Positions 5,677-37,388 of a DNA stretch of 64,000 nucleotides are shown in pieces. Origin of the DNA: Oceanispirochaeta crateris (GTDB taxonomy: Bacteria > Spirochaetota > Spirochaetia > DSM-2461); assembly GCF_008329965.1 (NCBI RefSeq), contig NZ_CP036150.1, positions 2,542,001 through 2,606,000 on the forward strand. The letters are read 5' to 3'. Position numbers and translations under genes: made by a program. Under the pieces are notes generated by a model. That model saw only the letters and a list, made by a program, of their open reading frames with translations, made no database searches and was not told where the DNA came from. Numbering within the stretch: the stretch's first letter is position 1; each line of letters starts with the position of its first letter.

Positions 5677-7084
5677 ATTAAAAATGATGGTTCTATGTCT
5701 TTTCATTGCCGTCTCTTTGAGCCTTCAGGCCCAGAACTTAGACAAGCAACTGGTAGAACAAGAACTGACCTGGAGAGCCATAGAGGGTGCTTGGGGCTAT
5801 GAAGTGGTCATCCGGGAAGGTGACACGGAAATTATCAACACACAAATTCAAGAAGCTCAGTTCAATTTTTCTCTTCCTCCGGGAGAGTATGAATTCACTA
5901 TCCGGACCCTCAATAAATTTAAAAAACCTGTAAACTCTACGGATTGGAAGCCCCTGATCATTGTGGAGGCTCTTCAACCGGTCATTCGAAATTTTACCCC
6001 GCAGAAAGAGTTCCTGAAATCAAATGGAGATCTTGTACTGAATGCCGATGTCTATCAGGTAAAAGAGGAAACACAATTTATACTCCTCTCGTCGAAAAAT
6101 AATGAAATCAGCGGAACGATGAGAGCTTTAGAAAAAGAAAAGGTTGAGATAGCCTTTCCAATGAGCGCTCTTGAACCGGGGGAGTATGTTTTATCGGCAC
6201 GGGACCCTTCGGGTCTGGAAGACAAGGCATCGATCATTCCTCTTACCCTCTTACCCATAATCAAACCGAAAATCGAAGACTTGAATTTGTATAGGATTCA
6301 GCAACAGCAGGTCTATACCGACATTGAAATTACCGGAAGAAACTTTGATGAAGGGAGCCAGGTTAAAATCACACGGCAGGGCCAGGAATTCTTGCCCTAC
6401 GAGTTGGAGAGAAAATCACCAGAACTGCTCATCATGTCCATCATCACAGGAGACAACCCACCCGGACGGTACTCTCTGAAAGTTATAAATCCTTCTGGAG
6501 AATCTGATACTAAAGAGAACTCATTTTTTATGGAAGAAGCCCCGGCTATGGAAGAGATCCAGTACACCCCGCCAGCGGAAACATCCGAGCTTTTAGGGGG
6601 AATTTCCTTCGTAGCCGTTGCAGAGCAGAGTCACGGAGAGTCCGATCCACTGTTCCCAGGTTTTGTCCTGAAAGCCCGCCAGGATTTGGTGAATTCACGA
6701 TTCTGGAGCTCCCCGGGACTGCGCCCCTTAGGGGTGGAACTTTTCTTGGACAGCTCCCACTTAGAGTACAAAAATGCTCCGTTTTTATATCATCAACTTT
6801 ACATGGGGCTATCTGTATATTACCGGATAAAATTGGCCGGAAAGTGGACTCTCATCCCCAAACTGGGGATCGGAGTCTCAACCCTCTGGGTCAATGAAGA
6901 GGGCCTACTAGGAGAATTGGTTCAGGGAGATTCGGGATATTCAGGAATCAGCGGCCTGAGTCTTCAAAGAGAATTAAAATCAGGATGGTTTATGGAAGGC
7001 GGTATCGATTACAGAGAAACCCGGTACACAGGCGGATATTTCAATACTTTTCATACCTGGCTAGCAGGAGGATTACGGTTTTGA
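5666..7084 (+). CDS. Exported protein with Ig/IPT-like domains and C-terminal beta-barrel-like region
   Basis: A 472-aa exported protein with a clear signal peptide (about 1-23, ending SLQAQ). An N-terminal FN3-like unit (PGEYEFTIRTLN) resembles those of the preceding gene. A middle part (about 100-290) has Ig/IPT-like segments, for example ITGRNFDEGSQVKI and PPGRYSLKVINPSG. The C-terminal 180 residues alternate hydrophobic and polar residues and end in phenylalanine (GGLRF), which suits an outer-membrane barrel or autotransporter-like anchor. It overlaps the FecR-like gene by 11 bp and the next gene by 4 bp, so it belongs to the cyclase operon. No family is recognised with confidence. Confidence 0.7.
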   Translation: MPIKLKMMVLCLFIAVSLSLQAQNLDKQLVEQELTWRAIEGAWGYEVVIREGDTEIINTQIQEAQFNFSLPPGEYEFTIRTLNKFKKPVNSTDWKPLIIVEALQPVIRNFTPQKEFLKSNGDLVLNADVYQVKEETQFILLSSKNNEISGTMRALEKEKVEIAFPMSALEPGEYVLSARDPSGLEDKASIIPLTLLPIIKPKIEDLNLYRIQQQQVYTDIEITGRNFDEGSQVKITRQGQEFLPYELERKSPELLIMSIITGDNPPGRYSLKVINPSGESDTKENSFFMEEAPAMEEIQYTPPAETSELLGGISFVAVAEQSHGESDPLFPGFVLKARQDLVNSRFWSSPGLRPLGVELFLDSSHLEYKNAPFLYHQLYMGLSVYYRIKLAGKWTLIPKLGIGVSTLWVNEEGLLGELVQGDSGYSGISGLSLQRELKSGWFMEGGIDYRETRYTGGYFNTFHTWLAGGLRF

Positions 7085-33003: not shown

Positions 33004-33486
33004 TTAAGACTCGGGAATTGGTGTAATTGTAAAAGATCCTGAATCTGTAACTGTTTTGAAATCCAGTATTTCTTCTGTTTCATAATTAACTTTTGTAAAA
33101 TAAAAACTAACATCCTCAAAAGAAACTGTTGTTCCAACGACTGAGACTACGCCACTTGTAGCAATGAATGAATATACCTCACCCGCAGTCCCATCATAAT
33201 ATGTAAATACAAACTCTACTTGACCATCTTCTATAGCACTAACGGTGCACTCATAATCATCACCATCTGGTAAAGTGCTAAAACCTTCACTATAAAATGA
33301 AATCTCTGCATATCCCACATCTGTATATTCATAGTAATTCAAATACGAATTACCATAAGTTGAATACTCCAGTGTTGAAATTGCAAGATCCGAAAAGGAT
33401 ATATCACCAGAGCCAGAATCGGAACTACATCCGGCAAAAAGAAAGAGAGCAAGGATAAGCAGAACCGGGAAAATCGTTTTTTTCAT
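33004..33486 (-). CDS. Small lipoprotein, unknown
   Basis: A 160-aa protein with a lipoprotein signal (MKKTIFPVLLILALFL, lipobox FAGC at C20) followed by a Ser/Gly/Asp linker. The mature part is a short beta-rich domain with many Tyr and acidic residues. It has a good AGGAG site before the ATG. No family is recognised. Confidence 0.65.
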   Translation of the reverse strand: MKKTIFPVLLILALFLFAGCSSDSGSGDISFSDLAISTLEYSTYGNSYLNYYEYTDVGYAEISFYSEGFSTLPDGDDYECTVSAIEDGQVEFVFTYYDGTAGEVYSFIATSGVVSVVGTTVSFEDVSFYFTKVNYETEEILDFKTVTDSGSFTITPIPES

Positions 33487-33610: not shown

Positions 33611-34360
33611 TTATTCATCCCTATGGATAACATCCCGAAGCTTATGCAGGGGTGCTTTCAGCTGAAATGCAAGCTCCTTTAAAACCTCACCGGGTTCAAC
33701 AGTGGAAAGGACAATAGAGGGAATATGATGCCGGGGAAACTGCCGGGCAAGGTCCAGCACCTCCTGATAGAGCTCCGCCTTGGGGTTCATCGGCACCGAA
33801 GGTTTCCCATCGGTAATCAATATGAGCTCTGGATGGTCGTGGGGATGACGAACCCGCTCGGAGCGGATAATCTGAAGCACCGTATAAAGACCTTCGGCGA
33901 GAGGTGTCCCGCCCCCTGTCGCCACGGCCTGAAGGGCTTGACGGGCGAGAGTGATACTGGTGGTTGGAGCCAAGACCTCATGGGCATGCCAGTGATGGAA
34001 AACGACCACCCCCACCCTGTATCGTTTCTGATAGGCTTGGGTCAAAAGCCCTAACACGGCCCCCTTGGCAAGTTTCATCTGCTCTTCCACCAGCATGGAA
34101 TCTGAGGCATCAACCAGAAAATGAATGGTCCTTCTGACCGGTTGTACCCTGATGCGGCGGTGAAGATCGTGAAAAAGAATACCATGGGAACCTGCAGAAG
34201 CCCCTCCGAAATGACGGCGCATGGCGGCGGCCAGACAGCTAGCCAGAGGATCTATTTCATCAATTTGTTCTGCGGACTTAACGGGGACAGAAGCAACATG
34301 CCTCCCGTAGCGGGAAACACTCTGAGGCTTACGGCTCGGCAAGAGACTATGCTCCTCCAA
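33611..34360 (-). CDS. VWA (ChlD-type) part of a chelatase, read in the -1 frame
   Basis: Encodes the von Willebrand A domain of a ChlD/BchD-like chelatase subunit. It has the metal-ion-dependent adhesion site DASDSM, the downstream GGGTPLAEG threonine, and LILITDGKPS. The frame has no ATG or ribosome site at its head: the first possible start is a poor TTG at 34360, but the frame stays open upstream to 34408, exactly where the preceding AAA+ frame carries an A-AAA-AAG slippery heptamer. The most natural reading is that this part is translated by -1 frameshifting as the end of a fusion of about 650 residues, normal for ChlD. An alternative is a separate protein started at TTG. Confidence 0.75.
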   Translation of the reverse strand: MEEHSLLPSRKPQSVSRYGRHVASVPVKSAEQIDEIDPLASCLAAAMRRHFGGASAGSHGILFHDLHRRIRVQPVRRTIHFLVDASDSMLVEEQMKLAKGAVLGLLTQAYQKRYRVGVVVFHHWHAHEVLAPTTSITLARQALQAVATGGGTPLAEGLYTVLQIIRSERVRHPHDHPELILITDGKPSVPMNPKAELYQEVLDLARQFPRHHIPSIVLSTVEPGEVLKELAFQLKAPLHKLRDVIHRDE

Positions 34361-34386
34361 AGAGAGGCGCAGGGGCGTCTCATTCC

Positions 34387-35562
34387 CTAGAAGGACAACA
34401 TTGGGTGCTTTTTTTTTAGGTAGGAAAATATAGGCATACCGCCGGCAAAAGAACCGGGAAAAATATCTTCATCGGGGTCAAATATGGCTTCAAACTCATC
34501 TTCCTCAGCTTCTCCGCCTTCGTGAAGAAAGGGGGTTTCTCCAAAAACCTCGACAATCGCCTTTTGCAGTTCCTTGGGCAGCTCCGTTCCTCCTTGCTCG
34601 AGAAAACGGTCTAGGCGGTGGGGAAGAACCATGGTAGACGCTTGAAGAATATCCTCAGGAGTAACCCGGTCCCGCTCTTCAAAAGCAGCAATGGCCGTTG
34701 CGACCTTTATCATGGTTATCTCAGCACGGTGTCCCTGGGCGCCGACCTTCACAGCCAACTCGGATGAGGCATCAAAGACCTCCTCCGGAACAGATATTTC
34801 GGAAAGAAGAAAGCGGGCTTTTGCGATCTGCTGGCGAAGGGTATTCTGGGTATCTTCCCATTTATCACAGAATGCCTGAGGATTTTTTTCGTAGGCAAGA
34901 CGGCGCCTCACCAGCTCACTCCTCTGCTTCACATCCTGTTCGCCAATAACATTGATACAAAGACCAAAGCGGTCAAGAAACTGGGGCCGAAGCTCCCCCT
35001 CTTCGGGATTCATGGTGCCAATGAGGATAAAATCGGCCGGATGAAGAACAGAGAGCCCCTCTCTTTCCACCCGGTTAATACCAGAGGCGGATGTATCCAG
35101 GAGGAGATCCACTAGATGATCGTCTAACAAATTTACTTCATCCACATAGAGTATACCCCGGTTGGCTGCAGCAAGGAGGCCTGGTTGAAACACTCTGTCG
35201 CCGGAGCGAAGGGCGCTCTCCAACTCTAAAGACCCAACAAGACGGTCCTCAGTCGCACCCAGTGGCAATTCAACAAGAGGGACAGAATACTCCACACTCT
35301 GAAGGACTTCACCCTTCTCAGCTTTAAGCCTGCAGTCTTCATGAATATAAGAACTGGCCTCTGGATCACAGTGATAGGGACAGTCCTTTACCACCTTGAT
35401 GGGCAAAAGCAGCTCAACTAATGACCTGACAGCGGTAGTCTTGGCTGTACCTTTATGACCACGAATCAGCACTCCGCCAATGGAGGGATCGATGGCATTC
35501 AGAATCAGAGAGGCTTTCATGGTTTCCTGGCCGACTATGGCTGTGAAAGGATATTTACTCAT
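34387..35562 (-). CDS. AAA+ chelatase subunit (ChlI/BchI type), zero-frame product
   Basis: ATPase motor that drives metal insertion by a chelatase, together with a VWA subunit and a large CobN/ChlH subunit. The product of 391 aa has Walker A GHKGTAKT (35-42), the ChlI-type insertion with C61, C65 and C77, Walker B ILYVDE (about 137-142) and the sensor region of the family. I choose the ATG at 35562; a TTG twelve codons upstream is possible, and neither has a good ribosome site. It ends seven codons after the slippery site with KKKHPMLSF. The upstream leader looks like a cobalamin riboswitch, so the metal is probably cobalt. Confidence 0.85.
   Translation of the reverse strand: MSKYPFTAIVGQETMKASLILNAIDPSIGGVLIRGHKGTAKTTAVRSLVELLLPIKVVKDCPYHCDPEASSYIHEDCRLKAEKGEVLQSVEYSVPLVELPLGATEDRLVGSLELESALRSGDRVFQPGLLAAANRGILYVDEVNLLDDHLVDLLLDTSASGINRVEREGLSVLHPADFILIGTMNPEEGELRPQFLDRFGLCINVIGEQDVKQRSELVRRRLAYEKNPQAFCDKWEDTQNTLRQQIAKARFLLSEISVPEEVFDASSELAVKVGAQGHRAEITMIKVATAIAAFEERDRVTPEDILQASTMVLPHRLDRFLEQGGTELPKELQKAIVEVFGETPFLHEGGEAEEDEFEAIFDPDEDIFPGSFAGGMPIFSYLKKKHPMLSF
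34408..34414 (-). other. -1 frameshift slippery site
   Basis: On the minus strand a run of nine A followed by G contains A-AAA-AAG exactly in the zero-frame register used by E. coli dnaX. A -1 slip there joins the AAA+ frame to the open VWA frame; the zero-frame TAG lies 18 bases after the heptamer. Short complementary segments GAG-A-CGC and GCG-C-CTC about 20-40 bases downstream could form a stimulatory hairpin. I do not see a clear upstream Shine-Dalgarno-like stimulator. Confidence 0.75.
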
Positions 35563-35611: not shown

Positions 35612-35695
35612 TGATTTTAGAGAAGGGGACAAAGAGGATTCAAACCGCTTCCCGACCTGATCGCTGACAGACAAGGCACCTTAGAGCCATGGGCG
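35612..35695 (-). promoter_or_regulatory. Cobalamin-riboswitch-like leader
   Basis: Reading the minus strand in order: AAGGTGCC, a 25-base variable part, GGGAAGCGGTTTGAATCC, then TTTGTCCCC. This follows the core order of the cobalamin riboswitch (GGTxCC, GGGAA-GGTG-AA-TCC, CCCC). The terminal GCxACTGT box is missing, so it may be a divergent or degenerate variant. It lies about 50 bases before the AAA+ chelatase start. Confidence 0.5.
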
Positions 35696-35706
35696 GTCGG
35701 CTCTAA
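35681..35706 (+). terminator. Hairpin with T-tract at the arsR 3' end
   Basis: Perfect 8-bp arms TTAGAGCC and GGCTCTAA with a 10-base loop, overlapping the arsR stop codon. On the plus strand the hairpin is followed by a T-rich tract, as in an intrinsic terminator, although no plus-strand gene ends here. Confidence 0.4.
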
Positions 35707-36119
35707 TTGTTTTTTTTATATTCAATCCATTCATCACTTTCGGCCCCAATCACACAGGCACCATCGACCCTCATGGAGAGGCGCTTTTGGCAGTGACCAA
35801 TTTCTGTCTGCATCAGTTCTTCCGGAATTGTCAGCACCGTATTTCTGATGGATTCATCAAAAGCATCGTGACTGCTTCTGTAATGATAGAAAGACCACCG
35901 CCCCTCTTTTTTTTCATAAATGAGTCCCGCATTTTTCAGAATTCTCAAATGTTTGGAAACATTGTATTGATTTTCATTGAGAACATCGATGATCTCTGAT
36001 GCGCTGATCTTCGAATCAATAGAGAGCAACAGCCACATGATCTTAAGTCTCGTGATATCCGATAGGGCTTTAAAGACAATAGTATAACTGTCCCAGGGGT
36101 TAATTTCATTCTGATTCAT
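35703..36119 (-). CDS. arsR: ArsR-family transcriptional regulator
   Basis: A 138-aa winged-helix repressor. The core (about 15-95) begins FKALSDITRLKIMWLLL and has the recognition helix QYNVSKHLRILKNAGLI followed by the wing EKKEGRWSFYHY. The classic ELCVCDL metal site of E. coli ArsR is absent; candidate cysteines lie near the C-terminus (GHCQKR, GACVIG), so metalloid sensing, if any, uses another site. Its neighbours are an efflux-type permease and arsenate reductase, which supports the arsenic role. Confidence 0.85.
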   Translation of the reverse strand: MNQNEINPWDSYTIVFKALSDITRLKIMWLLLSIDSKISASEIIDVLNENQYNVSKHLRILKNAGLIYEKKEGRWSFYHYRSSHDAFDESIRNTVLTIPEELMQTEIGHCQKRLSMRVDGACVIGAESDEWIEYKKNN

Positions 36120-36240: not shown

Positions 36241-37224
36241 TTAAATGAACATAAACAAAAAGCCTCCAGAAATGGCCAGCGCAAGGACGGTCAATGTAAA
36301 GGCGAGGACTCCTTTGGGCTTCAGCATGGATGAGAGGATGGCGAGTTCGGGTAAACTGGCTCCTGTTCCTCCGATAAGAAGGGCCACGGCGGCTCCCATG
36401 CCCATACCCTTTACTAGGAGTGTTCTCAGAAGTGGAATAGCCATTTCGATTCGCAGATAGAGGGGAACACCAATAGCTGAGGCAAGAGGAATGGCATACC
36501 AGGAATCATTTCCAACATATTTTTCAACAATGGAACTAGGTATGAAAGCAAGAGCAACCCCGCTGATAACCGCACCGATAATGGCGTAAGGAACTATCTG
36601 CTTGAAAAGGGCCAGAGCAAAGTTGAGGGCACTTTCTACCTTTTCCCGGGTCCCACCGCCGGCACTGCCTGCCTGGCAACAGCTGGTTGCGGCTGTCGTT
36701 CCTTCAGAACATGCGGATTCCTTTTTGACTTCACCACAACAAGATTCAGAACTCTTCTTATTCTTGGATTCTGCAATTTCAGCCAGGTTTTTAACCTGGT
36801 TCTTCACCCGGCTTCTTCCAACGGTCAGACCAGCTATAATGGCACCCACAAAGGTCCAAACCAAGTAAATGAGGGCAACTTTCCAACCAAAGGTTCCAAA
36901 GATAATACCAACAACAACAAAGTTACAAAGAGGAGCCGAAATCAAAAACGGCAGAACCGTTGAAAAAGGAGCCCCCATTTCAATCATGCCCATGGCAACG
37001 GGAACCATGGAGGCGCTACAAAAAGGAGTCAGAGTCCCTAAGGCAGCACCCATGAAAGCTCCTACAATGGTATTCTGATTCTTAAGTTTTTTCTGAAATT
37101 TTTCTTGAGGAATATATTCTCTGACAAATCCGGTAAGAATAGAAATTCCTGCAATAATAACGACAAGAACCCAGGCAACGTGCCAGAATTCTCCAAATGC
37201 AATACTCAATTTTTCATCAATCAT
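36241..37224 (-). CDS. Permease of the ArsP/DUF318 family
   Basis: A 327-aa integral membrane protein with about eight helices, of the permease family that exports arsenicals (ArsP) or related compounds. I start at the ATG at 37224 because AGGAG lies eight bases upstream; two earlier ATGs lack this. Between the two membrane halves is a cytoplasmic loop rich in cysteine (ESCCGEVKK, SACSE, TSCCQAG) that could bind As(III) or another thiophilic metal. Its place between arsR and arsC supports arsenic efflux. Confidence 0.8.
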   Translation of the reverse strand: MIDEKLSIAFGEFWHVAWVLVVIIAGISILTGFVREYIPQEKFQKKLKNQNTIVGAFMGAALGTLTPFCSASMVPVAMGMIEMGAPFSTVLPFLISAPLCNFVVVGIIFGTFGWKVALIYLVWTFVGAIIAGLTVGRSRVKNQVKNLAEIAESKNKKSSESCCGEVKKESACSEGTTAATSCCQAGSAGGGTREKVESALNFALALFKQIVPYAIIGAVISGVALAFIPSSIVEKYVGNDSWYAIPLASAIGVPLYLRIEMAIPLLRTLLVKGMGMGAAVALLIGGTGASLPELAILSSMLKPKGVLAFTLTVLALAISGGFLFMFI

Positions 37225-37388
37225 TCTCGATTCTCCTATCATATGCTTACATGCGCTATTTTGCATGTATTGTGATAATGATGAAAACTAGAATCCTTGT
37301 CAATAGGATTTACACCAGTTCTCTCCCCCCTACCCCAGCCCTTTAGAATGTAATGATTCCCCTGAGATAGTTCTCTTTTCTAATGAAT

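Follow-up and report, generated by a model that had tools for sequence, protein, structure and literature searches.

A conserved -1 frameshift predicted to give ChlI-like and ChlD-like products from one chlD gene in a largely spirochaete clade without a detected chelatase large subunit

The fs-chlD gene of Oceanispirochaeta crateris occupies positions 33611-35562 on the minus strand of the window, the 64,000-nucleotide stretch of DNA analyzed here, and begins with an ATG at 35562. Sequence comparison supports conserved -1 frameshifting that would yield a ChlI-like and a ChlD-like product from this single gene. We consider it probable that both products arise by programmed -1 slippage and constitute a self-contained motor of I and D subunits, acting on a client other than CobN or ChlH. 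The mechanism and the gene family are already published; to these we add a clade-wide absence of the large subunit, a signature motif, and a slip site consisting of two heptamers. The features of the gene are as follows.

34387..35562, minus strand: zero-frame open reading frame, ChlI-type AAA+ small subunit of 391 aa (TIGR02442, TIGR02030, motifs)
34389-34387, minus strand: zero-frame TAG stop, 18 nt past the run (sequence)
34408..34419, minus strand: slippery run CTA AAA AAA AAG, with A9 at 34417-34409 and G at 34408; conserved
34411..34461, minus strand: clade motif FPGSFAGGMPIFSYLKK, directly upstream of the slip site and extending into it
33611..34408, minus strand: -1 frame continuing past the slip, holding a linker plus a ChlD-type VWA domain (TIGR02442, VWA_2, fold prediction)

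Across the site, the zero frame reads CTA AAA AAA AAG CAC CCA ATG TTG TCC TTC TAG, and after the run it encodes HPMLSF before the TAG. The -1 frame is open from the run to a stop at 33613-33611, giving a 650-aa fusion with the junction LKKK-APNVV at the slip. The coordinates, the product sizes of about 391 and 650 aa, and this junction, as given in a preliminary description of the DNA, are borne out by the sequence, on the minus strand. Both halves follow the chelatase subunits in their profiles. The AAA+ half matches the N-terminal half of TIGR02442 (E 7e-142) and the BchI-ChlI profile TIGR02030 (E 3e-122) in profile searches, and the clade profile of this half matches the ChlI structure 6l8d in the PDB (E 4e-122). 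Its Walker A (GHKGTAKTT) and Walker B (LYVDEVN) motifs are intact. With ChlI and Cob-chelat-sub as the best profiles, an identity as a MoxR-family AAA+ protein is unsupported. The VWA half matches positions 426-629 of TIGR02442 (E 1e-41) as well as VWA_2 (E 6e-11), is modelled as a VWA fold with a pLDDT of 75.8 by structure prediction, and retains the MIDAS residues DASDS, T168, and D200 (numbered within the -1 segment). In TIGR02442, and likewise in the BchD/ChlD profile, the match of the first half is N-terminal and that of the second C-terminal.

The heptamer A_AAA_AAG sits in the dnaX register, as described previously, but it is not the sole candidate shift site. A second heptamer, A_AAA_AAA, overlaps it by using the A of CTA, which also lengthens the run from 8 to 9. 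Taken alone, an A9/T9 run is no rarity within the window (2 observed against 1.75 expected), and neither A8 nor A9 runs are depleted there; the evidence is therefore the conservation of the run and not the run itself. Of 6 congeners, 3 carry the gene. Two congeners (L030 and L031) share the layout of the window and an identical 12-base core, CTA AAA AAA AAG, at a DNA identity of 67-68%. Where a residue is conserved throughout the three congeneric species, only about 23% of the codons match in all of them; third-position identity across the species is 0.21 in the AAA+ part and 0.24 in the VWA part. The core stands out because silent sites have diverged in this way among the three congeners. In these genes CTA encodes 9 of 233 leucines, and it nevertheless stands at the slip site in all three species. 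Conservation of the VWA segment by codon position (0.63/0.75/0.24) indicates coding, and the -1-frame constraint begins directly at the slip site (APNVVLLGNETPL / ASKVILLGNETPL / ASNIILLGDETPL). Six more spirochaete genomes from three other families carry A9-A10 with an equal -1 offset, and a scan of the collection identified the same layout, again with A9-A10, in two MAGs, one of Desulfuromonadales (L063) and one of Desulfofustis (L068). The comparison of homologues, proposed earlier as a check, thereby agrees with the reading of ChlI- and ChlD-sized products by -1 frameshifting, as run and offset are conserved across the clade. Sequence comparison places the A_AAA_AAR slip site under purifying selection, in line with a review that reports such selection on A_AAA_AAR in chlD genes (PMC5009743). 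The scan also recovered many Chloroflexota fs-chlD genes, some of them with runs of only 7-8 A's; among Chloroflexota MAGs, frameshifted chlD is common (L076, L079, L094-L141).

In an AAA+ domain tree, built quickly without bootstrap and rooted arbitrarily, a single group (SH-aLRT 95) unites the window gene with the other spirochaete members and with L063 and L068; its 11 genes are all frameshifted. The Chloroflexota frameshifted genes form a separate group, and the frameshift label requires about seven changes on this tree. Just before the slip, the motif PG[AST]xx[AG]GxxxF occurs in 10 of the 11 clade members (nine spirochaetes and L063); it is absent from L068 and from every other chlI or chlD examined. 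We lean towards regarding these genes as a separate clade of AAA+/VWA motors built by frameshifting, found in spirochaetes and two Desulfobacterota-type MAGs and marked by PGxxAGxxxF..KKK, which may never have had, or may no longer use, a large subunit and would remodel or metallate another client.

In the proposed mechanism, translation without a slip on the A9G run would produce the 391-aa ChlI-like AAA+ ATPase, and a -1 slip the 650-aa ChlD-like AAA+/VWA fusion, by tandem tRNA-Lys slippage of the ribosome at A_AAA_AAA and/or A_AAA_AAG; slippage efficiency would then set the I:D ratio in the complex. Homologous chlD cassettes in E. coli frameshift at 63% with 11 A's, 40% with 9, and 10% with 7 (PMC3711429). 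For tRNA-Lys, the O. crateris genome encodes two genes with the anticodon UUU and one with CUU. With AAG in the A site, a tRNA-Lys(CUU) is expected to make slippage weaker; the heptamer A_AAA_AAA, which lies one codon upstream, may then account for a large share of the shift, and such a role would explain the conserved CTA. The presence of tRNA-Lys(CUU) itself counts against the favored explanation, as do the lack of a conserved RNA structure downstream within the genus, the absence of a visible Shine-Dalgarno-like stimulator, and the lack of a conserved neighbour naming the client. Folding of the RNA downstream of the slip, a check raised in the preliminary description, gave no strong shared stem (z = -1.4 for the window and about 0 for both congeners); a downstream stem-loop as the stimulator finds no clear support, since only the window folds fairly well and the fold is not conserved. 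By eye, no Shine-Dalgarno-like stimulator is seen upstream at the dnaX spacing. A downstream stimulatory RNA structure is usual in fs-chlD genes, though not universal.

Several other routes to the two halves have to be weighed against programmed ribosomal slippage, which we regard as most likely and favor over slippage by RNA polymerase. A homopolymer of nine invites suspicion of a sequencing error or a decaying pseudogene, but the conservation of the run and of the -1 layout refutes both: a matching break lies at the identical place in independent genomes, both frames are under purifying selection, and the catalytic motifs are intact, leaving this explanation a negligible chance. It is also highly improbable that the VWA part is a separate protein made from an internal start or by reinitiation after the TAG. 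The first start codon in the -1 frame is a TTG at 34360, 47 nt downstream of the slip; ATG, GTG, and TTG are absent between the last upstream stop of that frame and the slip site. This TTG lacks a ribosome site, the position of the first start differs among the three congeners (+47, +110, +161), and conserved -1-frame coding already begins upstream of it, which bears out the earlier statement that the VWA part has neither an ATG nor a ribosome site of its own. Slippage during transcription is a more serious competitor, although we consider it unlikely. Here RNA polymerase would add one A, or drop two, and some mRNAs would encode the fusion directly. In Thermus thermophilus dnaX, transcriptional slippage takes place on an A9 run. 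All 11 clade members have 9 or 10 A's, the conserved rare CTA takes the run from 8 to 9, and it is at nine that many bacterial genomes show evident selection against runs prone to slippage (PMC1088944). The CTA is, however, equally explained by its creation of A_AAA_AAA, the undepleted A8 and A9 runs in the window speak against the idea, and the related Chloroflexota genes with only 7-8 A's fit ribosomal heptamers better than transcript slippage. As either heptamer, or one A inserted by the polymerase, would result in an identical protein, mass spectrometry cannot distinguish between them.

Alternatively, the products might serve a CobN-type cobaltochelatase as its small and medium subunits, as the preliminary description proposed. 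The best profile, TIGR02442, is named 'putative cobaltochelatase', and some other fs-chlD genes share a genome with cobN (L072, L079, L104). This assignment is nevertheless improbable and unsupported, given that neither CobN/ChlH nor CbiD or CbiK is detectable in the genome. A profile search with PF02514 (CobN/ChlH), in which the controls were recovered, gave no match in the single-contig O. crateris genome; none of the nine frameshift genomes among the spirochaetes yielded one, against six of the eight spirochaetes whose chlI and chlD are separate genes. The hypergeometric probability of this split, by simple arithmetic that ignores relatedness, is 28/12376 = 0.002. PF02514 is likewise absent from the L063 and L068 genomes, which brings the clade to 0/11, and is present in only 2 of the 21 Chloroflexota frameshift genomes searched, both counts coming from MAGs that may be incomplete. 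Family searches of the O. crateris genome found neither CbiD nor the anaerobic chelatase CbiK, the two genes from which its corrin pathway was judged. The congeners G003 and G004 carry CbiD, and retention of fs-chlD therefore does not depend on this marker of corrin synthesis. Each half alone also scores below the TIGR02442 cut-off, a weak point, as this is expected of half a protein.

Our best reading is an AAA+/VWA motor, self-contained with its I and D parts; its products of 391 and 650 aa may co-assemble into an AAA+ complex acting on a client other than a CobN/ChlH large subunit, by analogy with the MoxR pairs NorQ/NorD, RavA/ViaA, and CbbQ/CbbO, in which an AAA+ motor and a VWA adaptor operate on a client. 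NorQ/NorD is described as an AAA+/VWA pair (PMC9976466). The MoxR pairs differ in that they belong to another AAA+ family and consist of separate genes with known clients. With magnesium chelatase ChlI/ChlD (BchI/BchD), the gene shares the AAA+ core, which is ChlI by sequence (6l8d, 8osf, 1g8p), and, in its long form, a VWA domain with MIDAS; it differs in being one frameshifted gene instead of two, in a genome without ChlH. It has the domain order and the best profile in common with the aerobic cobaltochelatase comprising CobN with ChlI/ChlD (TIGR02442), in contrast to which the genome here lacks CobN, CbiD, and CbiK. With regard to dnaX tau/gamma, the A_AAA_AAG register is shared with E. coli and the A9 run with T. 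thermophilus, where the event is transcriptional, whereas the shift here gives the longer product and neither an SD-like stimulator nor a conserved stem was found.

The closest precedents are published fs-chlD genes (the GeneTack magnesium chelatase cluster, PMC3711429; PMC9227772), which likewise consist of one gene with a -1 shift on a poly-A heptamer and ChlI- and ChlD-like products. They differ from the present gene, which has the site CTA AAA AAA AAG with its two overlapping heptamers and no clear downstream structure. In Spirochaeta thermophila, the large subunit is missing, as it is here, and the function of its fs-chlD was stated to be unknown in 2022 (Kuznetsov et al., PMC9227772). 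The earlier suggestion of a new spirochaete example of a known mechanism consequently stands as to the mechanism, but S. thermophila has precedence among spirochaetes; the accessible portions of PMC3711429 and PMC9227772 do not name the genus Oceanispirochaeta. A review already cautions that something besides magnesium chelation could be relevant (PMC5009743). The present genome, a single contig, joins the small published set of fs-chlD genomes without any chelatase large subunit. The absence of CobN as the rule in one clade sharpens the question posed in 2022 about the role of a ChlI and ChlD pair alone, and the site offers a clean case for telling ribosomal from RNA-polymerase slippage.

Among 33 frameshift loci, the only recurrent neighbours were ABC ATPases of a generic kind and a handful of genes specific to particular lineages, and the neighbourhood therefore names no client. 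A defence system was considered and rejected, as PADLOC returned only a weak AAA match. In the window, an ArsR/SmtB regulator (35703-36119) and an ArsP-type permease (SO_0444/SaoE-like, 36241-37266) lie directly upstream of fs-chlD on the same, minus strand; this adjoining pair is not conserved in relatives. An inverted repeat that resembles a terminator (TAGAGCC...GGCTCTA, then T8) is located at 35680-35720 in plus-strand orientation, without an obvious plus-strand gene ending there. A short lipoprotein-like ORF (33004-33486, minus strand) with no Pfam match adjoins the gene on its other side. In L041 (G031), a second frame break lies within the VWA part at approximately 5834-6322, where the close relative L040 is intact; either decay of this copy or a sequencing error may be behind it. 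Elsewhere in the O. crateris genome, a second AAA+ and VWA neighbourhood (L003 and L004, G000:C1:2895236-2901254) has a weak TIGR02442 match and is probably of the MoxR/Bat type.
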